Shown: in pieces, positions 1-20,270 of the stretch
Layout of the letters: each line of letters begins with the position of its first letter
How positions within the stretch are numbered: position 1 is the first letter of the stretch
Virus record (IMG/VR): IMGVR_UViG_3300029787_000434
Span: 1-20,312 of that record
Reading direction: 5' to 3' (one strand)
DNA from: a virus
Length of the DNA: 20,312 nt
Position numbers and translations under genes: made by a program
The notes under the pieces: model-generated
Databases searched by the model: none
What the model was told of the DNA's origin: nothing
The model's input: only the letters and a program-made list of their open reading frames with translations

Positions 1-1646
1 ATATTCTTTTGACCATCAGTACCAGTAACTAAACTTGGTAGATGTTCTTTAACTTCTTGTGCAATGAAACCAGTAAATGTTTTATCTGTAGGTGTTATGC
101 CATCTAAGTTTTTCCAGTTATAAGTTTTAGGAACTAACTTAGTTATCTTATCTAGTGAAGTACCAGTAATTGTAGTTATATTATCCTTTTTATCTCTATC
201 AGAAACATTACTACCATAGAATATATAATCTCCATCATTTTCTATTTTAAATTTCCACGATCCACCATTATCTAGATGACCTGTGTTAGAAGACCCATCA
301 GCATAAAAGTATCCACGTATACTACCATCTGATTTAAAACGTAAAGCACAGCTAGTAGAATCACCATTTAAACCAACACCATTAGACAGGGTTTCCAGCT
401 TCTCTTCATTATTATAAAAAAGTTTTGTATTTCCGTCACCATTACATAGAATACTATTTTCATAAGTTCCACTACCATTTCTATATTCTATACTTAAAGT
501 TTGACTAGCTTGCCATCCTCTTATTCTCCACTGGTCAGCCAGATCATCCTGTTCATCAGGGAAGATAAATATATAAGCATCATTACCTTCAGCACCATAA
601 GCAGCAATTCCATTCGTCTGTGTAGCAAAGGTTTTTACGCCGTTGTAATAGAGATCTATACCTGCATCGTCATCAAAGGTAGCAATAGTTTCTCCATCAT
701 CTTTAGCTCTAATTCTTAAATAAGCAGTTCTTATCTGTAACTCACCTGTATTACTGTCTATATATGAGTTGGAGCCATCATGAAAAATACCTAAATCATT
801 TCCAGTCCCAAAATTTGCAGCTTCATTATCAGGTATAAATAAAGAATCATTTAAATGTACACCATTTGAAGCAGTTTCTAGCTTTTTAACATTATTATGG
901 TAGAGTTCTACGGCACCATCTTTAATAAAGACTGCACTAACCTCACTCATTCCAACATTACCTATATAAACTCGATCATCTGATTCAAGATATAAATAAG
1001 AAGTACTGGAAACATCTAATCGTCCAGTTGTATTTTTTAGGTATGAATTAGAGCCATCATGATAGATTTGTAAATCTCCACTAGAGCCACATTCATATTT
1101 TCCTGTATCGTTTGGTATCTGTACTCTTCCGTCACTTTGGATGCGGAATTTTTCAACCCAACTTCCACTTTCTTTACTTCTAAAACCTAGTAGACTATCT
1201 CCTGCATTTTGAATACGCCAATAATCTGCATTGTCATCACCTTCATCTGCGGTGAAACTCAATATAGATCCACCACCTTCTCCACCTTTAATTTCAATAT
1301 GACCATCACCAAGATTTCCAGTAGTAGAAACTTCTAAATATCCTGCTGATAAAGTAGTACTTATTTTAGCTCCGTACTGAGTAGTCTCAAACTTTTTAGC
1401 GTTGTCGTAAAAAAGTGAAACTTCAGCATTAGGAGAGCAATCTATAAAGTTTTCAGAACCAGCAGCATTTTTAAAATAAATACCATCGTTTCTTATATGT
1501 AATGCACCTGTGCTATTTTTCAGGTATGAGTTCGACCCATCATGATACAGTTCAAAATCATTCCCTGTTCCCAAGCGGATCTTCTCATTATCAATGAGGT
1601 CGATAGGAGTCTTTAAACCCCTATCGTCTATTTGTGTTAATGCCAT
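1..1646 (-). CDS. Second tail-fibre-like protein with S74 chaperone domain (C-terminus cut by window edge)
   Basis: An uninterrupted reading frame runs from ATG at 1646 to the window edge, 548 codons with no stop. It starts 2 nt after the stop of the large tail fibre gene, so the two are probably co-translated. The protein begins MALTQIDDRGLKTPID and carries at least three YHDGSNSYLKN-type motifs (about residues 34-44, 194-204 and 287-297), each near phrases such as GTGND and followed by beta-rich sequence. Further repeats of the form LFYDNAKKFET and LFYNNEEKLET are visible. These modules are typical of marine phage fibres and structural proteins. From about residue 482 the motif SDRDKKDNI followed by FIAQEV marks the start of an S74 intramolecular chaperone domain, which normally trimerises the fibre and then cleaves itself off at the Ser. 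Role inferred: an accessory host-recognition fibre or tip protein, made after the gp17-like fibre. The exact receptor role is unknown. Only the last part of the S74 domain should be missing. Confidence 0.85.
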   Translation of the reverse strand, partial: MALTQIDDRGLKTPIDLIDNEKIRLGTGNDFELYHDGSNSYLKNSTGALHIRNDGIYFKNAAGSENFIDCSPNAEVSLFYDNAKKFETTQYGAKISTTLSAGYLEVSTTGNLGDGHIEIKGGEGGGSILSFTADEGDDNADYWRIQNAGDSLLGFRSKESGSWVEKFRIQSDGRVQIPNDTGKYECGSSGDLQIYHDGSNSYLKNTTGRLDVSSTSYLYLESDDRVYIGNVGMSEVSAVFIKDGAVELYHNNVKKLETASNGVHLNDSLFIPDNEAANFGTGNDLGIFHDGSNSYIDSNTGELQIRTAYLRIRAKDDGETIATFDDDAGIDLYYNGVKTFATQTNGIAAYGAEGNDAYIFIFPDEQDDLADQWRIRGWQASQTLSIEYRNGSGTYENSILCNGDGNTKLFYNNEEKLETLSNGVGLNGDSTSCALRFKSDGSIRGYFYADGSSNTGHLDNGGSWKFKIENDGDYIFYGSNVSDRDKKDNITTITGTSLDKITKLVPKTYNWKNLDGITPTDKTFTGFIAQEVKEHLPSLVTGTDGQKN

Positions 1647-1648
1647 AG

Positions 1649-4600
1649 TTATTTAGCCTCCAATGCTGTTACTTTTGCTGACAGTTCCTTAATTGCATTA
1701 ACAAGAACGGGAACTAGACGTTCATACTTAAGACCATACGCTGTTTTATCTTCATTAAGATTAACGACTAACATATCATCTTTATCGCTAGGGTTTCCTT
1801 CAATAGCTAATACATCTTGAGCTAGGAATCCAAGATGTTTCCTATTTCGTTTTTTACTACCATCAGGAGTGTTGTCGTCATACCAAGTACGTTTGTCCCA
1901 ACGATATGTCACAGGTTTTAATTGATTAATCCAATTTAACCCATTAGTAAAGTCAACAATATCAGTTTTATCTCTCTTATCAGATGATGAAATGGATGTA
2001 TCAGCACAATATATATCAGTAATATTATTATCTCCTAAACATATAACATTAGAACTTGTTTGTAGTTGTCCTGACGGAGAAGTAGACGATGCTGCATTAA
2101 ACCCTAGAACGAGATTGTTAGTACCTGAACTAATAAATGGACCAGCACCATATCCAAGAGCAGTGTTGTAGTTACCATTATTTCTACCAAGAGCAAAATA
2201 ACCAACACCAACTGCACCAGTAGCAGTTGTTTGTGCCTCCATAGCATCACAACCAACAGCAACATTATATTGACCAGTTGTATGGTGATCCAGTGCCTGA
2301 AAACCTAAAGCAGTGTTGTGAGTTCCAGTTGTGTTTGCTTTTAATGCTTGTGTTCCAACACCAGTATTATAATCACCATTAGTATTTAAATTTAATGTTT
2401 CAAAACCAACAGCTACATTATCATGTCCTGCATCAGTAATCGTATATAAAGCACTATTACCTACAGCAGTATTTCTAGCTGCTTCAGTAATGCTGTATAA
2501 AGCAGTACTACCTATTCCAGTGTTGTTAACACCAGTGGTATGGTTCTGACCTACTCTATACCCAATAGCAACATTACCTGTTCCTGTAGTGGTAGATTTA
2601 AGTGCTTCAAAACCAATAGCAACTTGATAACTTCCATCTGTTGCAGTTTCTAATGCTTTGTACCCAATAGCAACTTTACCGTTGCCATCTGTGCCTGAAA
2701 GCATTGCACGATGACCAACAGCAGTATTATTACTTCCAGTATTGTTAACTAAAACGCCATCACCAACACCAACATTAGCCTCACCTGTTGTAGTGCTTTC
2801 TAAAGTATTATTTCCTATAGCAACATTATAAGATGCAGTGGTGTTTGCACCTAATGCATTTCTACCTACTGCTATGTTCTGATTACCTGTAGTATTAGCA
2901 TCTAATGCAATCTCACCAACAGCAACATTCCTAAGTCCAGTTGTGTTATATAATAATGTATCCTTACCAAGTGCTGTATTATTAGACCCTGTTGTATTTG
3001 TATATAATGCAAAATTACCAACACCAACATTATATTGACCTGTAGTATTATTCTGTAACGTAGATTTACCTATAGCAGTATTCTGATCTCCTGTTGTATT
3101 GGCACTGAGAGCATAAACACCAACAGCAACATTGCTAGCAGCAGTTGTATTAGCATCTAATGCATATGCACCAACAGCAGTATTTGATGAACCTGTTGTA
3201 TTGGCCTCTAATGTAGCAAAACCAAGAGCAGTGTTTAGAGTTCCTGTTGTATTATTATATAAAGCACCATAACCAAAAGCAGCATTATTATCGGCAGTTG
3301 TATTACTTTCTAATGCAAATTTACCAACTGCAGTGTTATTACCTCCTGTTGTGTTTGCTTCTAATGCTTTATATCCAACAGCTACGTTATTAGCTCCTGT
3401 AGTATTTAATTCTAAAGCTGAATAACCTACAGCAGTGAGACTATCACCTGTTGTATTTGTATATAAAGATTTAGAACCAACGGCTGTGTTTTCATTGGCA
3501 GTTGTATTATTATATAAAGATCCATAACCAACAGCTGTATTATTAGAAGCTGTAGTATTGTTAAATAATGACCAACTACCTAATGCAGCATTATATCCAC
3601 CAGTTGTGTTATAGTACAGAGTGCTAGTACCGACTGCAAGGTTTATTACACCTGTAGTATTAGCATCCAAAGAATTTCTACCAAAAGCATTGTTATAATT
3701 ACCTGTGGTGTTACTTTCTAAAGCTTGTTCCCCTACAGCAGTGTTTTGAGTTCCTGTAGTATTAGACTTCAATGCTAAGTGACCAATAGCTACTTGTTGA
3801 GCTCCTGTTGTGTTTGCTTTTAATGCTCCTCCACCTACAGCGGTGTTATCAGATGCAGTAGTATTATTTGCTAAAGCACTCTCTCCAACTGCAGTAACAT
3901 TAGATCCAGTTGTATGATCATATAAAGCATCTTTACCTATACCAACATTATTATCCCCAGTTGTTAAAGCTGTTCCAGCATCCTTACCAATAAGAACATT
4001 ATTATTTGCATTTGTTCCATCAAAAGCATCCCCAGCATTAGTACCAACTACAGTATTATTCTGTGCATCAGCAGTAACTAATAGAGATCCAGAAGCTATC
4101 TTAGCTACTGTAACAGCGTTATTAGCTATTTTTTGGGTAGATATAAGATCATTTTGTAAGTGTACTGTATATATACTTCCATCTGCAATCTTTGTATTAT
4201 CTACAGCATCATCTGCTATTTTAACTGTTGTTACTGCTCCAGATGCTATCTTAGCTGCTGTAACTGTACCATCACTAGGAGTACCAATACTTACTGTCGT
4301 TCCGAGTGTAAGAATGAAATAATCACTACCACTAGCGGGGGCATTAGAAAAGATAATTGAGCTACCGTCAATAACAAATCCTTCGGATGGCTGACTGGTT
4401 CCGCTATTAGGTTTCTGAATGACTCCATTGATGCTAACAACATGTTGTTGAGCTGAAGAACCTGGGTTGGATAAGACAAATCTATAAGCTGATCCATTAA
4501 ATGTAGCAGAGTTACCACCAGTACCAGAATAACTGGATATTGTATTTATATAGAAATCACCACTAGATGCTACTTCTTCCCAAGCAGAACCATCATATAC

Positions 4601-6499
4601 CTTTAACTTATCTGTTGCTGTATCCCACCATAAGTCACCTTCATCTAATGAAGAACTAGGTGCAGATCCAGCTACTCTATATCTTTCAGCAAAGTCATTT
4701 ATGTCTCCACTAAGACTGAGTAGATCAGCTTCTTTAAGTGTTGCTTTGTGGTAGTTATATATCTGACCAGAGCCAGTAGAACTAACCATAAATGAAACAC
4801 CAGCATCAACAGTAGTACTGTTAAAGTTAGAAGCTATGTTATTAATAGTTACTGTTGAAGCACCTACAGTTCTACCTGTAGTACTTGTACCAGATCCATT
4901 AACTACAAGACCACCAGCATCAGCTATAGAAATGACTACACCAGCAGCAGGTTGAGTATTAGGAAATGCTGCGTCTGTTGCTATTACTTCTAATCCACCT
5001 ATGGGAGCAAGTTGTGCAGCAACATAATCAACAACAGCTCCAGATGTAGGAAGTTGTGTATCGCTATTTGATATACTAGTTTGTTTTAGATCACTAGCTA
5101 GTTTAGCAAGTGTTATATTACTATCTGCAACTTTAACTGTTGTTACGTTAGCATCAGTAATCTTAGATGTTGTAACAGCATTAGAAGCTAGTTTAGCATC
5201 TGTAACTTGAGTTGCACCTATATGTTCAGTATCAATAGATCCTGCTACATAGTGGTTAGAGTCAAGTTGATCATTAGCTATCTTAGAGCTAGTAATTGCG
5301 TCATTTGCTATCTTTGCAGTTGTTATCTCACCATCAGATATAAGAGCTTCTACAATAGTATTATTTGATATATCAACAGTTTGTATTGCACCAGTAGCAA
5401 TCTTAGCAGAAGTAATAGCATCGTTTGCAATCTTAGCTGTAGTAACAGCATCTGCTGCTATTTGATTAGAATTAACTGCATTAGTTCCTATTGCTGCATT
5501 ATTTACTGAACCAGCTGCATAATGCTCAGTACTAACTGCGTCGTCAGCTATTTTAGCTCCAGTCACAGCGTCAGCTGCTATCTTAGCTGTAGTAACATTA
5601 GCATCTGCAATTTTAGCTGTAGTCACTCCAGAGTCAGCTAAATCACTTGTACCTATAGTACCTGCTGCTAACTTAGCACCAGTCACTGAGTTATCTGCTA
5701 GGTGAGCTGTGTCTATAGATCCGTCTACATAGTGTTCTGAATCAATAGAGTCATCTGCTATCTTAGCATTAGTTATAGCATCATTAGCTATATCTACTGT
5801 AGCTACTGTGCCATCTACTAAGTTAGCACTAGCTACGGTAATATCAGTAGGTAATGCACCTGAATTCAGCTTTGCTAATGTAACAGCATTATCAGCTATT
5901 TTAGCTGTAGTTACGTTAGCATCAGCTATTTTAGCTGTAGTAACATTTGAATCTGCTATCTTAGCTGTAGTAACTTGAGCATCTGCTATATGTGCAGTAT
6001 CTATACTACCGTCTACATAGTGCTCAGAATTGATCTGATCATCAGCTATTAAAGCACTAGTTATATTATCAGCTTTTATCTTAACTGTAGTAACAGCAGC
6101 ATCTCTAATCTGTGTTGTACTAATTGTAGTACTCTGCTCTTCCTGTAATGCTCTTAATATCTGTGTTTGGTTAGCATTTAGATCTTCAGCTTTAATAGCA
6201 CTACCAGCTGCATAAGTAGCTTTAGCAGTATCTACACCTGTATCTCTTCTTATTCTAACTAGCAGTCCATTCTTAGGTGAACCATCAGATTCACATACAT
6301 TTGTATTTGTAGTGCCTGTAGTATTATCAAATGTAACTGTTCTTGTACCTGTAGTAGCATAGCTAGGTACTGTATAGTTATTAACTAATACACCATCTAC
6401 TTCTACTACTACTTCTCCTACAACGTAGGTTGGGAATGAATAATCAAATGTCTTATCTGACCCATCCCCTGTGTATTCATGAAAGGTTGTTGTTGCCAT
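1649..6499 (-). CDS. T7 gp17-like tail fibre, very long, with head-type repeats and C-terminal S74 domain
   Basis: This 1616-residue protein (T7 gp17 has about 553) is the main host-recognition fibre. Residues 1 to about 140 (MATTTFHEYTGDGSDKTFDY..., then RRDT and IKAEDLNANQTQILRALQE) match the T7 gp17 N-terminal domain that docks the fibre to the tail. Residues of about 125-475 are degenerate 11-12-residue units of the form IADANVTTAKIAD, probably a thin shaft. A middle segment (about 520-740) includes SGDINDFAERYRV and LDEGDLWWDT..LKVYDGSAWEEV, a module seen in cyanophage fibres. Residues of about 812-1470 are some 38 copies of a 17-residue repeat, NTAVGxxALxxNTTGxx, resembling YadA/adhesin head repeats. 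The S74 peptidase/chaperone domain begins at S1506 (SSDKRDKTDI), continues through HLGFLAQDV, and ends in a short coiled coil (LVNAIKELSAKVTALEAK). Start ATG 6499 lies 2 nt after the gp16-like stop. Trimer formation and auto-cleavage before S1506 are inferred from the family. Confidence 0.93.
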   Translation of the reverse strand: MATTTFHEYTGDGSDKTFDYSFPTYVVGEVVVEVDGVLVNNYTVPSYATTGTRTVTFDNTTGTTNTNVCESDGSPKNGLLVRIRRDTGVDTAKATYAAGSAIKAEDLNANQTQILRALQEEQSTTISTTQIRDAAVTTVKIKADNITSALIADDQINSEHYVDGSIDTAHIADAQVTTAKIADSNVTTAKIADANVTTAKIADNAVTLAKLNSGALPTDITVASANLVDGTVATVDIANDAITNAKIADDSIDSEHYVDGSIDTAHLADNSVTGAKLAAGTIGTSDLADSGVTTAKIADANVTTAKIAADAVTGAKIADDAVSTEHYAAGSVNNAAIGTNAVNSNQIAADAVTTAKIANDAITSAKIATGAIQTVDISNNTIVEALISDGEITTAKIANDAITSSKIANDQLDSNHYVAGSIDTEHIGATQVTDAKLASNAVTTSKITDANVTTVKVADSNITLAKLASDLKQTSISNSDTQLPTSGAVVDYVAAQLAPIGGLEVIATDAAFPNTQPAAGVVISIADAGGLVVNGSGTSTTGRTVGASTVTINNIASNFNSTTVDAGVSFMVSSTGSGQIYNYHKATLKEADLLSLSGDINDFAERYRVAGSAPSSSLDEGDLWWDTATDKLKVYDGSAWEEVASSGDFYINTISSYSGTGGNSATFNGSAYRFVLSNPGSSAQQHVVSINGVIQKPNSGTSQPSEGFVIDGSSIIFSNAPASGSDYFILTLGTTVSIGTPSDGTVTAAKIASGAVTTVKIADDAVDNTKIADGSIYTVHLQNDLISTQKIANNAVTVAKIASGSLLVTADAQNNTVVGTNAGDAFDGTNANNNVLIGKDAGTALTTGDNNVGIGKDALYDHTTGSNVTAVGESALANNTTASDNTAVGGGALKANTTGAQQVAIGHLALKSNTTGTQNTAVGEQALESNTTGNYNNAFGRNSLDANTTGVINLAVGTSTLYYNTTGGYNAALGSWSLFNNTTASNNTAVGYGSLYNNTTANENTAVGSKSLYTNTTGDSLTAVGYSALELNTTGANNVAVGYKALEANTTGGNNTAVGKFALESNTTADNNAAFGYGALYNNTTGTLNTALGFATLEANTTGSSNTAVGAYALDANTTAASNVAVGVYALSANTTGDQNTAIGKSTLQNNTTGQYNVGVGNFALYTNTTGSNNTALGKDTLLYNTTGLRNVAVGEIALDANTTGNQNIAVGRNALGANTTASYNVAIGNNTLESTTTGEANVGVGDGVLVNNTGSNNTAVGHRAMLSGTDGNGKVAIGYKALETATDGSYQVAIGFEALKSTTTGTGNVAIGYRVGQNHTTGVNNTGIGSTALYSITEAARNTAVGNSALYTITDAGHDNVAVGFETLNLNTNGDYNTGVGTQALKANTTGTHNTALGFQALDHHTTGQYNVAVGCDAMEAQTTATGAVGVGYFALGRNNGNYNTALGYGAGPFISSGTNNLVLGFNAASSTSPSGQLQTSSNVICLGDNNITDIYCADTSISSSDKRDKTDIVDFTNGLNWINQLKPVTYRWDKRTWYDDNTPDGSKKRNRKHLGFLAQDVLAIEGNPSDKDDMLVVNLNEDKTAYGLKYERLVPVLVNAIKELSAKVTALEAK
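2090..4062 (-). repeat. Tandem 51-bp repeats coding the NTAVGxxALxxNTTG array
   Basis: About 38 diverged tandem units with a 51-nt period lie inside the tail fibre gene. Each encodes N-T-A-V-G-x-x-A-L-x-x-N-T-T-G-x-x, with the first N, the G at position 5, the L at position 9 and the NTTG most constant. Almost all units are exactly 17 residues. A few near the C-terminal end lose the NTTG (for example ITEAAR and ITDAGHD) or vary by one residue. The pattern resembles the left-handed beta-roll head repeats of trimeric adhesins. Nucleotide identity between units is modest, so these look like old duplications held by selection on protein structure. Confidence 0.85.
5080..6120 (-). repeat. Degenerate VTTAKIAD shaft repeats in the tail fibre gene
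   Basis: The N-terminal third of the fibre consists of 11-12-residue units related to IADANVTTAKIAD, with variants such as IDTAHIADAQ, DSEHYVDGSI and DAITNAKIADD. The longer IDSEHYVDGSIDTAH phrase recurs several times, so there is a higher-order repeat as well. A few further units occur at about 4070-4275, after the middle module and before the head-repeat array. I infer a trimeric fibrous shaft. The exact unit boundaries are not certain. Confidence 0.75.
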
Positions 6500-6501
6500 G
6501 T

Positions 6502-9500
6502 TTATTTATAAGGTAGATTTAGAATGGGTTGGATGTCATTTGTTTCTCGTTTTTTAAGTATTCGTTTTTTCTTTTTTTCTTTATCCTGAGTTTCTAACTC
6601 TTTAATACGAGGATCATTCATTATCCTAGACCAAGCTTTATCTTTAGAATTTTCTACTAAAGAATCTATCATTCTTACATGATAGTAATCTTCGGGTTGA
6701 TAATCACCACGTTTACCAGAACGAATATCATTATTCATCATTTTCAATGATTCTATAATCTTAGGATCATCTGCTAATAATGTAAGTTTTGCTTCCAAAT
6801 TAGTTTCACCAATAGCTTTTGAAAACATTGATCTTATTCTAGGACTATTAGATAAATCTGTACCAGTTGGTGAAAAATATGTAGTTATACTACTATCATA
6901 TCCTGAATCAAACCAAAATCTTCTACCTGGACTTTCATCAAGATTTAATGATATTGGACTAAACATATTCCATGCTCTAGTCATAAAATCATAGTCTCTA
7001 ATAGGTTTAGCGTTTAATAAATCATATTTAGTAGGAAGATCGTCTCCAGGTAAATACTCTGATACTAAGTTTCTATTACGTAAAGCATCGCCTATTCCAG
7101 AACTTAATTCTTTCATATGTGGATTAAATAGTTTACCTAGTTCATTTCTTAAACCAGCTAAAGGTACTTGGTTATTTAATAAACCTGCTGCTATTCTAGC
7201 TTGTTGTCCAGGTTTACCAGCTACCATATCTACTAACTGAGTTATACCAGCAAAATATGATTTACTTGTAATAGACTGAGCTACAACTAATGATACTTTC
7301 TGTAATTGATCTTCTGTCCATTCATCACCCATTAATAAACTATAATCTCCTATATCAGATATAGTAGAAAATATCATATTAAATGGTTCAATAGCATCAT
7401 AACCAACTCTTACTGCACCTACTTTCCAAGTTCTAGGTTTATAACCTCCATCAATCCAAGCTTTTCTTTTTTGCCTATCAACAGGACCATTACCTGTTAA
7501 GTTTCCAGCCATCCAAGCCTGTATTGTCATCATAACTATAGAACTACCCATAGCAAATCTACCAGTCTGCAATGCTTTAGCATTAGCTAGTTCTTCAGCT
7601 GAGTTAATACCATACTGAATAACATTATCTAGATTGTCTGGTGTAGCTCTAGCTATATCATTAAATTCTTTAACTAAGAAGTTGAATCCAGGTGTATGTT
7701 TAGCAGTTAAAGCTAGTCCATTAACACCAGTTCTAGCAAATAGGAAAAAAGGTTTAGCCCAAGGATGAGCAGTAAATACATCATTCAATCCTTTAGAAAA
7801 TCCAGTTAAGTCTTGTGTTAGAGTTACTTCCTTACTAGCAAACTTAGCTGCCTCATCCGTTAAGTTACCATCTCCGTCAAATATTTGAGACAAGAAATCT
7901 TGTTCATATGCTTGCATTAAATCTTTATCTATTACAGGTGTTTTATACCCAGCAGATTGAAGATCCATAACACTACGCATAGCTTTTTCTCTAGCCTTAG
8001 CTCTACCAATGATGTGTTTAAAAGCATCATCAATAGCAGCCATTATCTTTGTGTTAGCAGTAAGAAAACTATTGTTATTCCAAGCTCTAGCCATGTTAGC
8101 CATAGAAAACATAGCTTTATCGCCTAAAGTAGCTCTACCACTATCTTCAGCCCAACGTCTTAATATTTCCCAGTTATCATCAGCTCTTGTATATTCGTAG
8201 TATCTTGATTTAATACTAGATATATCACCACTCCAATATGATTCTAGTTTAGTTTTAAACAAAGTAATAGATTCTGGAATAGCTTCTATCATAGCATTTA
8301 AAGAAGATATACCAGCTCTTGCTGTATTAAAATCTCCTCTTAATGTAGCTCCTAAAGCTGTATTAATAGGTCTTAAGAAAGTAGCTGTACTTGTACCAAT
8401 AGCAGCTCTAGCTGGTGTTTTAGGACCACTAAGTATGCTATTAGTCATTACACCTTCTAATTCTCTTATCAAGGCTCCTGTACGATCTGGTCCCTTGGGA
8501 TCAATCTTACCACCTTTGATCATCTTCCTTGCCCATGCGTCAAAATCGTCTAGATTATTAACAGTCTTCATAGATGAGAATGTTTCAAACAAAGCATTCA
8601 TTAAACCTTCTGGAGCATCATCTTTAGCGATTTTCAGGATTGTCATGATTGAATCCCGTGTATCAGCCATTTCTTCAGTCAACGTAGATTCTAAGAATTC
8701 TCTTTGCTTACCTGCACCTATCTCTCTAAAGTTCTGTGATTTTAAAATCCTAGCTTTTTTAACTTCTGTTAGGGCTGTAAGAAGTGTATCTACAACTTGA
8801 GCTGCAGGTCCATCTATATCACCAAGATCTACTATGTCTGCTAGTTCTCTACCAGCAATCCCTGTATCTCTTATTTGATGTAGTAATGTACCTACAATTA
8901 AATCTGTAGTTACTATGTTCTTACTTGTAAATGTTTCTATTGTATCTACTACTTCACCAGCTGCATTAGTTACATCGTAGCTATCTTTAGCTTTATACAT
9001 TTCTTCAAGATATTCTTTAGCTGACATTTCTGCAGCATTCCTACCTTGAGTAATACGTTGGTGTGCCATAATGCTATCACCAAATACTTCTACTAATGTT
9101 TTTCTACCAGCTCTGACTTGATCTATAACAGCTTTAAATTTATCAGCACTGTATAACTTACGTAGGATACTTTCAGCCGTAGCTTCACTAATGTCTCCTT
9201 CTCTAGCTATACGTTCACGTTGAACTGGAGTAGTAACTGAACCCGTAGATCCATCTTCTGCACCCCATTCCTTCCTGATACGCTGCTGTGTTTCCCATGC
9301 TTCAGATGGGTGTTGTTCTGATATGTGTGCTCCTTGATGTGAGTCAGCTACAGGTCTATTTTTATCTGCTCTAAATTCAGCTTCACCCCTTCTTAATTGA
9401 GCTAGTCCGTTTTCAGTTGTTTGTCTTTTAATACTTTCGTTTCTCAGTTCAACTTGAGATAAACTTTTTGGTCCTCTTTTCAAGAACATAGTAGCCCCAT

Positions 9501-17463: not shown

Positions 17464-17492
17464 ATAATAAAAAAGGGAGACCAAAGCCTCCC
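17464..17492 (-). terminator. Intrinsic terminator after capsid (T7 T-phi position)
   Basis: On the minus strand a 7-bp stem (GGGAGGC / GTCTCCC, with one G-U pair) and a TTTG loop are followed directly by TTTTTTATTAT. The stem occupies 17475-17492. It lies in the 52-nt gap between capsid and tail tubular A, the position where T7 carries its partial terminator T-phi after gene 10. It probably lowers expression of tail and core genes relative to capsid. Confidence 0.88.
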
Positions 17493-17507
17493 CATATGAA
17501 TAATAAG

Positions 17508-18698
17508 TTAGAATGCTTGAGCAACTCCAGAGTTTGGAGCGATACCAGCAATCAATTCCACAGCAGCAGCTGGGTTTAGAGGTGCGGCTCCCATAGCCAA
17601 CCTACCTAAAATGACATCTCCCTGATAAATCACGGATACATCACCTGAAGTAACTTGAACTTGAGGTCCAATAGCCTCTACACAACCAACAGCTTCTTTC
17701 TGGAAGATAAGTCCACAAGAGTTGTCGAACTTGTTTCCTTCACCGTAGTCATTAACTGTGCGTTGTCCATCAGGAGCACCAGAAGCAGATTCTGCTTGGT
17801 TTCCCATGTCCTCACTTACGAAAGAACCAGTATTACCAGGATCAGTTACACCTGTTACAGTTGTACCAGAACCAGTACCATACTTAGTACCAAACTTACC
17901 GAAGAATGGAATGTTCATTGACTTGTAGATCTTAATGCCTGCAATCTCAACGATACCTTGACCACTCTGGCGTGAGTCACCTTGCTCGTCTCTGTTAACG
18001 AGTCCGTTCTCACCAACCTGTTGTATTAATTCGTAATACTGTCTAGGGTTAAGTACACCAACACGTCCTTCAGTTGAAACACCTTTCTCATCTAGTGCAG
18101 CAGCTGCATCATAGAAAGCGTTTACAAGGTTAGCAGGAACATAAGCATCAGAACCTTGAGCTGTAGCACCAACACGAATCTGTGTTCCGCCTGGCTCTAG
18201 GAAGTTAGTCTTCTGAATAGGAGAAGCTTGTCTAGCAGCTTTAGTAATTGCTCTAAAGATTCTTCTATCGTAGTTCTCTGCAAGAGCATAACCAATCTTA
18301 CGTGAGATCTCTCCCCTCAAATCATAATGAGCAAGGGTCTCGTCCAATTCGTAAACGAATGCTGAACTGATTAAGAGGTCATCGCACTCGATGGTTACTT
18401 CTGCTACTGGAGGTGCACCGTCGGTGTTACCTAGTATGTTCTGGCCTGGAACATGAAACTCACTATTTGTACGACCAGTGAAGATGAACTGTAATGAACG
18501 TCCGTTCTTCAATGTACGCTTAGTGATTAGATCCCTAGCAATTGTGTTACGCTGGAATCCTTTGAACAGCTCTCCGCTGAACAATTTTAAATACAGGGCT
18601 CTTCTGTGTGCTGTTGTAGTAGCATCAGGAGTACCCTTATTAGCTGCAACACCACCCCATGTTAAGGAAGTGTTGTTAGCATTATTTTGATGTGCCAT
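17508..18698 (-). CDS. Major capsid protein, T7 gp10-like
   Basis: The protein has 396 residues (T7 gp10A has 345) and forms the icosahedral shell. Supporting sequence includes ALYLKLFSGELFKGFQRNTIARDL near residue 35, then GRSLQFIFTGRT, a DDLLISSAFVYELDETLAHYDLRGEISRKIGYALAENYDRRIFRAI stretch typical of the HK97-fold spine region in T7-like capsids, and VLNPRQYYELIQQ around 215-230. A Gly/Thr/Ser-rich insertion near residues 265-310 may be a surface loop that accounts for the extra length. The ATG at 18698 has no Shine-Dalgarno and is preceded by AT-rich sequence. A terminator and a structured leader lie upstream and a terminator lies directly downstream, so capsid sits in its own expression unit. 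I see no clear frameshift site for a 10B-like product. Confidence 0.95.
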   Translation of the reverse strand: MAHQNNANNTSLTWGGVAANKGTPDATTTAHRRALYLKLFSGELFKGFQRNTIARDLITKRTLKNGRSLQFIFTGRTNSEFHVPGQNILGNTDGAPPVAEVTIECDDLLISSAFVYELDETLAHYDLRGEISRKIGYALAENYDRRIFRAITKAARQASPIQKTNFLEPGGTQIRVGATAQGSDAYVPANLVNAFYDAAAALDEKGVSTEGRVGVLNPRQYYELIQQVGENGLVNRDEQGDSRQSGQGIVEIAGIKIYKSMNIPFFGKFGTKYGTGSGTTVTGVTDPGNTGSFVSEDMGNQAESASGAPDGQRTVNDYGEGNKFDNSCGLIFQKEAVGCVEAIGPQVQVTSGDVSVIYQGDVILGRLAMGAAPLNPAAAVELIAGIAPNSGVAQAF

Positions 18699-18880
18699 TT
18701 GTATGGATAAATTTTATATTAACTTTCTCAGCTGAAATTTTTTGATCATTGTTTGTGGTCTATCCCACCGTCTAGACGGCTAAAGGGTATCCTGCGTACA
18801 GGGCCAAAAGCCAATTAGCCAGAGATCCGACACTGAGGTGTCTCTGACCTATGGTATTGGAGGTGTGCTCCTTCTACCAT
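18699..18880 (-). other. Hairpin-rich leader of capsid mRNA
   Basis: There is no gene here, but inverted repeats are dense. From the upstream end: a hairpin with arms 18875-18881 and 18850-18856 (TATGGTA/TACCATA) and an inner GGAG/CTCC stem; a hairpin across 18820-18846 (CAGA + GACAC / GTGTC + TCTG); CCTG/CAGG at 18791-18802; and a perfect 12-nt palindrome CCGTCTAGACGG at 18768-18779. GGTC at 18846-18849 (minus sense) could pair with GACC at 18757-18760, closing most of the element into a multibranch fold. A TATAAA box-like sequence at 18713-18718 is a weak promoter candidate. It is not a tRNA by inspection. I infer a capsid mRNA leader, an RNase processing site or a structured RNA; the function is unknown. 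Confidence 0.55.
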
Positions 18881-18915
18881 AATAAAAAAGGCTAGCAGTC
18901 CGAAGACCACTAGCC
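18881..18915 (-). terminator. Strong intrinsic terminator between the small-ORF cassette and capsid
   Basis: On the minus strand an 11-bp stem (GGCTAGTGGTC / GACTGCTAGCC, with two G-U wobbles) and a UUCG tetraloop are followed by TTTTTTATTAT. The stem lies at 18890-18915. It is 18 nt after the stop of the 47-codon ORF and should end transcripts coming from psbA and the riboswitch cassette. Capsid therefore probably has its own promoter further down. On the plus strand the hairpin has no U-tract, so it acts only in the gene direction. Confidence 0.92.
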
Positions 18916-18933
18916 ATAATTCATTGAATCCCT

Positions 18934-19077
18934 TCACAGAGTAGAGAGTGCTTCTTCTAGAGAGATATCCTCGTCGAATTTCTCTTTAGTTTCTTCATGC
19001 TCTTCTGGTTTGTTGTGATGAGATTGGGGTGAAAATGAGGTAACATTAGCTGTTACCTTATTACTTTGATGAGCCAT
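18934..19077 (-). CDS. 47-residue acidic protein downstream of the riboswitch peptide
   Basis: An ATG-to-TGA frame of 47 codons starts 4 nt after the stop of the 17-aa peptide and ends 18 nt before the terminator hairpin, so it is the last gene of this unit. The N-terminus MAHQSNKVTANVTSFSPQ is polar. The second half is very acidic, with runs such as KPEEHEETKEKFDEDISLEE, and looks helical. There is no membrane segment and no domain I recognise. Its first codons (MAHQSN) closely mirror those of the capsid gene (MAHQNN) at both protein and DNA level. No clear Shine-Dalgarno is seen, so coupling to the upstream peptide is likely. The position supports a real gene, but the function is unknown. 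Confidence 0.7.
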   Translation of the reverse strand: MAHQSNKVTANVTSFSPQSHHNKPEEHEETKEKFDEDISLEEALSTL

Positions 19078-19081
19078 CAAT

Positions 19082-19135
19082 TTACTTTGTAGTTTTGGTG
19101 TACTCAACGCCACGATATACGTAAGTTACTGTCAT
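19082..19135 (-). CDS. 17-residue DUF4278-like peptide controlled by glutamine riboswitch
   Basis: The frame encodes MTVTYVYRGVEYTKTTK and then TAA. The YVYRGVEY core matches the start of DUF4278 proteins (typically LTYRGVSY), the family of very small cyanobacterial proteins that includes the PII-interacting regulator PirA. Published Downstream-peptide glutamine riboswitches lie in front of short ORFs of about 17 codons upward, and this one fits that lower limit. The ATG at 19135 is 15 nt after the last riboswitch helix, and a weak GGA lies 8 nt upstream. An in-frame ATG at 19180 lies within the RNA fold and adds sequence unlike the family, so I reject it. Function inferred: a peptide that interferes with host nitrogen control or glutamine metabolism. 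Its target is not known. Confidence 0.75.
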   Translation of the reverse strand: MTVTYVYRGVEYTKTTK

Positions 19136-19150
19136 GTGTAAAATCCATAT

Positions 19151-19210
19151 ACCAAGCCCCGTTCCATGCTTGGGTGTCATGCGCCTCTGATTTAAAGAGG
19201 TGAACGGACG
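19151..19210 (-). promoter_or_regulatory. Glutamine riboswitch, Downstream-peptide (glutamine-II) type
   Basis: Right after the psbA stop the minus strand reads CGTCCGTTCACC. A 5-bp hairpin follows (CCTCT 19200-19196 with AGAGG 19188-19184, 7-nt loop), then CGCATGAC, and then a 6-bp hairpin (CCAAGC 19173-19168 with GCTTGG 19157-19152). The second loop contains GAACGG (19164-19159), exactly complementary to CCGTTC (19207-19202), giving a pseudoknot. A CGUUCACC segment, a hairpin and a following GGCGCA are, as I recall, features of the Downstream-peptide glutamine aptamer known from marine cyanobacteria and their phages. The tiny DUF4278-like ORF that follows supports this. Gene control is probably at translation, because no terminator lies between aptamer and peptide. 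Ligand and direction of control are inferred. Confidence 0.75.
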
Positions 19211-19214
19211 TTGA

Positions 19215-20270
19215 TTAAACGACTGGCGTAGCTTCTATAGCTGCCAAGTCGAGAGGAAAGTTGTGGGCATTTCTTTCATGCATTACTTCCATACCTAGAT
19301 TAGCACGGTTCAATACATCTGCCCAAGTAGGGACAACCGAACCATTCGCATCTAACACGGACTGGTTGAAGTTGAATCCGTTGAGATTAAAAGCCATAGT
19401 GGAGATTCCCATACTGGTAAGCCATATGCAAAAGACGGGCCAAGTAGCAAGGAAAAAATGTAGGCTACGACTATTGTTAAAGCTGGCATATTGGAAGATA
19501 AGTCTCCCAAAGTATCCATGAGCCGCAACAATGTTATACGTCTCCTCTTCTTGACCGAATTTATATCCATAGTTTTGTGAGGTGAGACCAGTTGTCTCCC
19601 TAATAAGTGAGGAAGTAACAAGACTTCCGTGCATAGCAGCGAATAAAGCTCCACCGAATACCCCTGCAACACCGAGCATATGGAACGGATGCATAAGGAT
19701 ATTGTGCTCTGCCTGAAACACAAACATAAAATTGAAAGTGCCTGAAATACCAAGAGGCATACCATCAGAGAAACTCCCTTGACCAAATGGATAAACAAGG
19801 AAGACGGAGAAAGCTGCTGCAACAGGTGCAGAATAAGCGACGCAAATCCATGGTCGCATTCCTAGTCGATAACTAAGTTCCCATTGTCGTCCCAAGTAAG
19901 CTGAGATACCAATGAGAAAGTGGAACACAATGAGTTGATATGGTCCTCCGTTATACAACCATTCATCGAGGGTTGCAGCTTCCCAGATTGGGTAGAAGTG
20001 AAGACCGATTGCGTTAGATGATGGGACGATAGCCCCTGAGATAATGTTGTTTCCATAGAGTAAAGAGCCAGCTACGGGTTCACGTATACCATCTATGTCA
20101 ACAGGTGGAGCAGCTATGAAAGCTACTATAAAAGCTGTTGTAGCAGTTAAGAGTGCAGGGATCATTAGCACACCAAACCACCCCACGTAGAGGCGGTTGT
20201 CTGTGCTCGTAACCCAGTCACATAAACTCTGCCAGTTGGTATTTGGTTTTGTTAGTGTGGCTGTAGTCAT
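19215..20270 (-). CDS. psbA: Photosystem II reaction-centre protein D1
   Basis: The protein has 351 residues with five expected membrane helices. It binds the pigments, Q_B and the manganese cluster of photosystem II. Numbering is one less than in the standard D1. TyrZ is Y160, the Mn-cluster ligands D169, E188, H331, E332, D341 and the mature C-terminal A343 are present, as are the P680 ligand H197, the iron and Q_B ligands H214 and H271, and the Q_B serine S263. After HNFPLDLA only 8 residues remain (AIEATPVV), about half the usual extension removed by CtpA. The stromal loop reads [17 protein letters not shown], resembling marine picocyanobacterial and phage D1 ([12 protein letters not shown]). 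No intron interrupts the gene. In cyanophages, D1 replaces damaged host protein and sustains photosynthesis during infection. The ATG at 20270 lies 4 nt after an upstream stop; AGGAG sits about 20 nt upstream and is brought closer by a small GAGT/ACTC hairpin. No hli gene follows it here. Confidence 0.98.

Follow-up and report, generated by a model that had tools for sequence, protein, structure and literature searches.

A conserved, covarying RNA core preceded by tRNAs, tRNA mimics or a fixed-loop hairpin adjoins the capsid gene of T7-like marine cyanophages and may mark the 5′ end of the capsid messenger

Introduction

Cyanopodoviruses are among the most abundant viruses of the ocean, and their polymerase uses few promoters, which raises the question of how they make far more capsid than other proteins. 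In T7, the leader of gene 10 lies at the corresponding gene position and gives the most abundant of the late mRNAs a structured 5′ end. Passages of PMC3950665 describe two promoters for the Syn5 RNA polymerase, one of them transcribing over 37 kb. In the Syn5 genome, exact promoter copies were found only at 4929 and 44797, and the capsid gene lies at 20017. Unlike T7, which has its own promoter before gene 10, Syn5 has neither of its promoters near the capsid gene. The capsid leader analysed here offers a testable answer, in which RNA processing would replace the promoter.

Gene Order and Known RNAs Around the Leader

The window, i.e., the whole stretch of 20,312 nucleotides that was analysed (IMG/VR record IMGVR_UViG_3300029787_000434), represents part of the genome of a T7-like marine cyanophage that carries psbA. 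Along the minus strand, psbA is followed by a Glutamine-II riboswitch, small ORFs, a terminator, the leader and the major capsid gene, an ORF at 17508..18698 (minus strand) identified by tblastn to cyanophage capsid proteins. The leader runs from 18889 to 18699 in the sense of this gene. Its upstream neighbour, reported as a terminator by the initial annotation, was recovered by pattern scan as a terminator-like hairpin of 11 pairs with a T run (18915-18890, minus strand); it forms the upstream border of the capsid unit, and hairpins like it are visible in near relatives of the window. A further terminator-like hairpin detected by pattern scan (17474..17493, minus strand) lies 3′ of the capsid gene.

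The Glutamine-II riboswitch aptamer (RF01704; 19209-19151, minus strand; 49.5 bits) stands directly behind psbA, with only small ORFs before the next terminator, and is also present in many related loci. It is a structured RNA of the same intergenic region, but a separate one, placed ~340 nt upstream of the core described below. It was the only match when the whole window was searched with Rfam 15, and it falls outside the leader, where no family reached its gathering cut-off. A search of 18650-19250 with E values up to 10 returned only chance matches on the leader, and 18 related loci yielded tRNA and Glutamine-II only. A ribozyme reading was dropped for want of an Rfam match in the leader. 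The cyanophage structured RNAs PhotoRC-II, wcaG and manA were, like the core, found by comparison (PMC2864571); however, they belong to other genes, the text of that paper mentions capsid 0 times, and none of the three matches the leader in Rfam. No published description of the leader was found in the openly accessible literature, to which the search was confined.

From a Single Fold to a Conserved Unit

A densely structured leader had been proposed for this locus, comprising several hairpins, a perfect 12-nt palindrome and a two-part stem containing AAGGAG, all able to close into one multibranch fold. The candidate roles given were RNase processing or mRNA stability, cis-regulation by a new RNA, and a small RNA of the phage. 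The palindrome CCGTCTAGACGG (18768-18779) and the two-part stem (18881-18850, minus strand, in the predicted fold) are indeed present, and several more hairpins occur beyond those named. The multibranch fold gave way to another arrangement, since the conserved unit consists of a hairpin (18849-18815), the core (18814-18749) and a downstream palindrome (18728-18735). When relatives were read by eye, the outer stem of 18850..18881 was common to near relatives only, and AAGGAG was kept, among the relatives compared, only in the nearest ones (L001, L002, L003 and L009). Burial of a Shine-Dalgarno sequence at AAGGAG was therefore rejected, this motif not being conserved.

Folding energy is by itself a modest argument for structure. 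For the 190-nt leader, the predicted folding energy is −47.6 kcal/mol (z −2.16), a level reached by 4/200 shuffles; the stretch made up of the core and a short 3′ tail gives a z of only −0.98, and 33/200 shuffles do as well. The conservation and covariation of the leader, on the other hand, are far beyond chance.

The Core Is a New Covarying RNA Family Before the Capsid Gene

The core RNA extends from UUGG to past hairpin P4 (18749..18814, minus strand), contains a 64-nt core with P1, P2 and P4, and matches its covariance model with 80.5 bits. Helix P1 (18778..18812, minus strand) pairs GGCUUUUGG (18812-18804) with CCUUUAGCC (18786-18778) and encloses helix P2 (CCUG/CAGG; 18791..18802, minus strand), which carries a UACG cap. 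On the 3′ side of P2 stands the conserved A-UAC bulge (18790-18787, minus strand), whose three conserved bases vary as UAC, CAC, CAA or UAA. The palindrome mentioned above, here P3 (18768..18779), is symmetric in most leaders and lost in one divergent group; it overlaps the 3′ strand of P1 by 2 nt, so that P1 and P3 compete for both. Hairpin P4 (GUGG-GAUAGA-CCAC; 18755..18768, minus strand) has other stem types that could be read directly (GUCG/CGAC and GUCUG/CAGAC), and its 5′ strand seems to resemble the T7 phi10 start. Long insertions in P2 were observed in L017, L068, L171 and L176, the remaining core being unchanged.

A blastn search with the leader returned 32 phage records, all of cyanophages or uncultured relatives, in which leader blocks share 71-87% identity, though the capsid proteins differ by 26-48% or more. 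The covariance model was built from 19 gap-free cores (seed A2), and 75 of 80 IMG/VR capsid loci match it; in four of them the match is truncated because the contig begins there. The five loci without a match (L019, L028, L030, L053 and L071) start at most 53 nt before the capsid match, which means that the core was found in 75/75 loci holding upstream sequence. It was also found in all five phage loci searched with the model. In the reverse direction, a capsid gene follows 186 of the 189 pattern sites having at least 400 nt downstream; the exceptions are L273, L275 and L256, where a hairpin A loop (see below) lies away from the core.

Covariation in relatives, the very test that the initial annotation had proposed for its structural claim, was strongly positive. 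A further 100 sources were then scanned with the model, and the 94 matches obtained form alignment A3, with 83 distinct rows. In these rows 91.8% of cells pair, against 74.4% in shuffled alignments and 32-52% when one strand was slid by 1-3 columns. Changes on both sides were found in 13 of 16 pairs (shuffled, 9.1) and in 231 cells (shuffled, 80), values that 0/500 shuffles matched in either case; further pair types numbered 33 against 28.3 in shuffles, a level attained by 5/500. All eight modelled pairs of P1 changed on both sides, although two of the inner ones stay unpaired in 48 and 40 of the 83 rows, roughly half. P2 changed on both sides in 3/4 pairs with 98.6% of cells paired, and P4 in 2/4 pairs, with the other two invariant and 100% of cells paired. 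The P4 counts lean to the A2 register, since the 19 seed rows were chosen by P4 register from 32 gap-free rows; L171 and L179, with long P2 insertions, were excluded from one core set. A3 was fitted to the model, which favours structure, but the slid control and compensatory variants read directly from the sequences (GGC/GCC to GAC/GUC, and GUGG/CCAC to GUCG/CGAC in P4) argue against model fitting as the cause of the signal. The helices covary as RNA, G-U pairs included, and therefore a structured RNA is conserved in cis to the capsid gene. Judged from these alignments, the core is a new covarying RNA family, and its covariation is unusually clear.

A later pattern set is no evidence of covariation, because it holds too few distinct P1 strands: P1 pairing was 0.725 both observed and shuffled. 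Among distant phages with rearranged or weak cores, P60 and S-TIP28 matched at E 0.002-0.005, S-CBP42 and SS120-1 at E 0.02-0.03, and Syn5 only at 0.14, and the core model with E up to 1 found no match in S-CBP2 or Roseobacter phage CRP-125. The likeness of the distant phages was read by eye, including a Syn5 P1 with its strands exchanged. Two core copies were observed on each of two contigs, which may be one genotype, at 4990-5059 and 5827-5887 in L226 and at 2682-2751 and 3519-3579 in L267; in L226, one copy precedes ORFs of 84 and 148 aa and the other the capsid gene.

The Slot 5′ of the Core Holds tRNAs, Minimal Mimics or a Fixed-Loop Hairpin

The position 5′ of the core, hereafter the slot, was classified in 206 leaders, five of which had too little upstream sequence. 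Among the other 201, the slot holds hairpin A in 149, a T arm in 51 and neither in one (L110). Three leaders (L020, L045 and L134) that had first been sorted as "other" were assigned to their class manually, and a regular expression confirmed this. Truncated or duplicate IMG/VR capsid loci (L006, L021, L039, L050, L052, L069, L072 and L076) were omitted, as were, among the further sources, L214 (the IMG/VR copy of S-CBP1), L211, L228, L231, L274, L296 and the second L267 match.

The T-arm slots range from complete tRNAs through forms without a D arm to minimal acceptor-plus-T-arm forms. The complete ones are Gly-UCC and a Leu call, score up to 72.4 bits (70.5 bits for that of NATL1A-7), and end one nt before the core in L011, L013, L022, L033, L059, L060, L068, L077, L083/L205, L091 and L256. 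Thus, in NATL1A-7 the tRNA occupies 3479-3549 (minus strand) and the core starts from 3478, and in L256 the tRNA occupies 6154-6224 (minus strand) and the core starts from 6153. The tRNA called by ARAGORN runs one nt into the core, onto its first U, in L011, L013, L022, L033 and L091; in L011, Rfam places the tRNA end at 444, one nt short of the core. Where the D arm is missing (L010, L040 and L196), the Rfam score is 29-32 bits, and the minimal forms overlap a small ORF at its end, as in P-SSP7. In L060, an Rfam match to abiF RNA (168-204; 47.8 bits) was observed immediately upstream of the slot tRNA, which is called Leu (AAG).

The distance between the T stem and the core is 8 nt in 35/51 leaders and 9 nt in the other 16, whose T arms stand one nt beyond the canonical distance. 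As 8 nt equal the seven acceptor bases and the discriminator, the core begins at tRNA position 74, right after position 73, the cut site of tRNase Z. According to passages of PMC3714273, the cut of this enzyme falls after the discriminator, and RNase P, tRNase Z and the CCA-adding enzyme all accept an acceptor-plus-T-arm minihelix. The minimal mimics keep the tRNA ruler, since the distance is 8 or 9 nt throughout. Tested crudely over 7 nt, acceptor pairing in 40 distinct T-arm slots rose above shuffles for complete tRNAs only; in the minimal mimics, the longest Watson-Crick helix between the flanks averaged 4.89 pairs against 3.73 when permuted (0/500; 18 distinct strands), which points to a real acceptor helix in these mimics.

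In the window, the slot was assigned by loop match to hairpin A, a stem with the fixed loop CACCTCAGTGTCGGA that ends directly before the core (18815..18849, minus strand), and 0 tRNA genes were found in the window with ARAGORN or Rfam (RF00005). The 15-nt loop is identical in 113 of the 149 leaders, and 27 more share one common variant. Over the first 10 positions of 95 distinct stems, 88.7% are paired, against 64.0% (maximum 67.6%) in row-shuffled stems. The stem has 8-11 pairs and ends 0-2 nt before the core, each in 132/147, and the ruler to the core is 11 nt in 127/149 and 12 nt in 22/149. No T-loop match was found in hairpin A, and we know of no enzyme for it. That hairpin A could be a tRNA mimic is suggested by its equal position and its ruler only. 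S-SRP01 also carries hairpin A, and its genome is reported without tRNA genes in passages of PMC8557907. By eye, the loop of hairpin A could be paired with GGUG in P4, but this pairing is lost in GUCG-type leaders and was dropped.

These rulers recurred in the later pattern set, with 8/8 hairpins at 11 nt and 6/6 T arms at 8 nt; the set comprised 17 distinct cores, including two others that are apparently false matches and one short one, and nine more rows without a TTG start look like coding matches. Slot type follows the capsid weakly: on a tree of 163 capsids it changes at least 35 times (shuffled mean 42.5, minimum 34), a count inflated because thinning kept near relatives that differ in the slot. 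In the search for host copies, 11 exact 17-mer matches were found in genome contigs, about the number expected by chance for the bases searched, and none was followed by the core. L256 also holds, near 16-6929 (minus strand), a hairpin A loop that leads into a long hairpin of another kind, on the same contig as its core-abutting tRNA-Gly. The conservation of the leader, its helices, its position, its slot types and their distances are established.

A Proposed Processing Site and Its Rivals

Processing is the best-supported function of the leader, because tRNAs or tRNA mimics fill the slot at a fixed distance. From its place along the genome, the leader probably marks where the long phage transcript gets cut, releasing the capsid messenger. 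The phage polymerase would produce long transcripts from few promoters, and the slot element, whether a tRNA, a minimal mimic or, as in the window, hairpin A, would be the target of a host RNase, with tRNase Z as the likeliest enzyme for slots carrying a T arm. Cutting at the 3′ edge of this element would leave two unpaired U 5′ of P1, so that UU would form the start of the capsid mRNA, ahead of helix P1/P2 and hairpin P4. In the window, the processing site before the capsid gene and the terminator behind it, which would close the other end, would together yield a separate capsid mRNA. The cutting, the enzyme and the stabilisation of the mRNA by the core are thus what we infer from position.

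Passages of PMC10989914 attribute to cyanobacteria RNase Z, an RNase E with a 5′-end sensing pathway and a 5′-3′ RNase J; for most of its substrates RNase E favours a 5′-monophosphate end, and RNAs that lack the 5′ triphosphate are degraded by the cyanobacterial RNase J. Pairing at the 5′ end would therefore be of help, and P1/P2 and P4 may shield the new 5′-phosphate end from both. According to passages of PMC9692554, an isoform of the host RNase E is induced in P-SSP7 infection, in which the phage transcripts are said to be shielded by antisense RNA. Taken as a whole, the reading of the leader as RNA punctuation that supplies the capsid mRNA of T7-like marine cyanophages with its 5′ end stands in our estimate at an even balance.

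A rather unlikely but possible reading is that hairpin A is a processing hairpin for RNase III or RNase E, as in the maturation of T7 late mRNAs, and that tRNAs are simply another route, with no mimicry involved. Hairpin A has the long paired stem (8-11 pairs) and the fixed loop, without a T-loop, that suit such a hairpin, and cyanobacteria have RNase III, Mini-III and RNase E (again in passages of PMC10989914); however, RNase III does not require the fixed 15-nt loop that most leaders share, and the spacing from the core is no less fixed than in leaders with a T arm.

The leader element might instead act uncut, slot and core forming one cis-regulatory RNA that controls capsid translation, with the capsid protein, a ribosomal protein or a tRNA-binding factor as example ligands, and we consider this unlikely. 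The leader always adjoins the capsid start, and the short gap between slot and core would permit stacking. Against this, the complete, high-scoring tRNAs of the slot would be useless as tRNAs if still attached, and the second core copies of L226 and L267 precede other genes, so the element is not tied to the capsid protein alone.

It had also been suggested that the leader yields a free small phage RNA, which would arise by cutting off the leader or by early termination. The compact stable fold beside a processing site would suit this, but the element is fixed to the gene start, and no terminator-like site was found by pattern scan between the core and the capsid gene in the window. Comparison bore out a conserved structured RNA in cis, and a free small RNA became less likely because 186/189 pattern sites precede a capsid gene; we regard it as very unlikely.

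A DNA element, i.e., a phage-polymerase promoter or operator in the core or the palindromes, is highly improbable even though the palindromes are conserved and T7 has a strong promoter at the corresponding place, since the helices covary as RNA, the palindrome letters change freely, the known Syn5 promoter is located elsewhere, and the core and the 16-nt palindrome context occur, weak chance sites aside, once per genome in P-SSP7, NATL1A-7 and S-TIP37. A T7-type promoter in the core was rejected on account of this single occurrence per genome.

Relation to Known RNA Punctuation

In mitochondrial transcripts, tRNAs lying between genes are excised and thereby make mRNA ends. The cyanophage leader would be a variant of such punctuation, which differs in that a single phage gene is concerned, that cutting is predicted, and that the slot also holds minimal mimics and a non-tRNA hairpin. 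In the gammaherpesvirus TMERs and the MALAT1 mascRNA, a tRNA-like part, processed by tRNase Z or RNase P, abuts another RNA and sets its end. These systems are eukaryotic, whereas the downstream product of the phage leader would be the capsid mRNA, and they are likened to it by arrangement alone. The cyanophage slot, occupied in a natural series by tRNAs, minimal tRNAs and a non-tRNA hairpin, could be useful for defining the requirements of RNase P and RNase Z.

A Loop-Less Palindrome Before the Capsid Start

A separate puzzle is posed by a symmetric, zero-loop palindrome 5′ of the start codon, TCAGCTGA in the window (18728..18735), whose position is conserved while its sequence changes, and which stands outside the punctuation model. 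Between the core and the start codon, a loop-less palindrome of at least 8 nt was found in 184 of 191 distinct leaders, and one of at least 10 nt in 141/191, against ~21 expected from shuffles; in 142/191 the best inverted repeat has a loop size of zero, against 29 in shuffles. The palindromes comprise 67 distinct sequences with 13 centre tetramers, and 159/184 end 25-39 nt before the start codon. Four sequences were tested for repeats of the palindrome, and in none does it recur as an operator would; in the window the 16-nt palindrome context is not repeated within 3 mismatches, except at one distant site with 3 mismatches.

A symmetric centre is needed by a two-copy duplex or a DNA dyad, not by a hairpin. 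A joint reading, distinctly unlikely as a whole, is that the late transcript is punctuated by tRNAs, their mimics and an evolved stand-in hairpin, and that the capsid mRNA (or a DNA site) dimerises via the palindrome. If so, the capsid mRNA would pair with its own copies, the sequence being free and the symmetry kept, and the dimer could serve, for example, in sensing mRNA dose or in providing a double-stranded 5′ region against RNases.

One further trait of the region concerns the start of the capsid protein itself: a 47-aa ORF upstream of the terminator (18934-19077, minus strand) begins with MAHQ, like the capsid protein, and is perhaps a duplicated capsid start.
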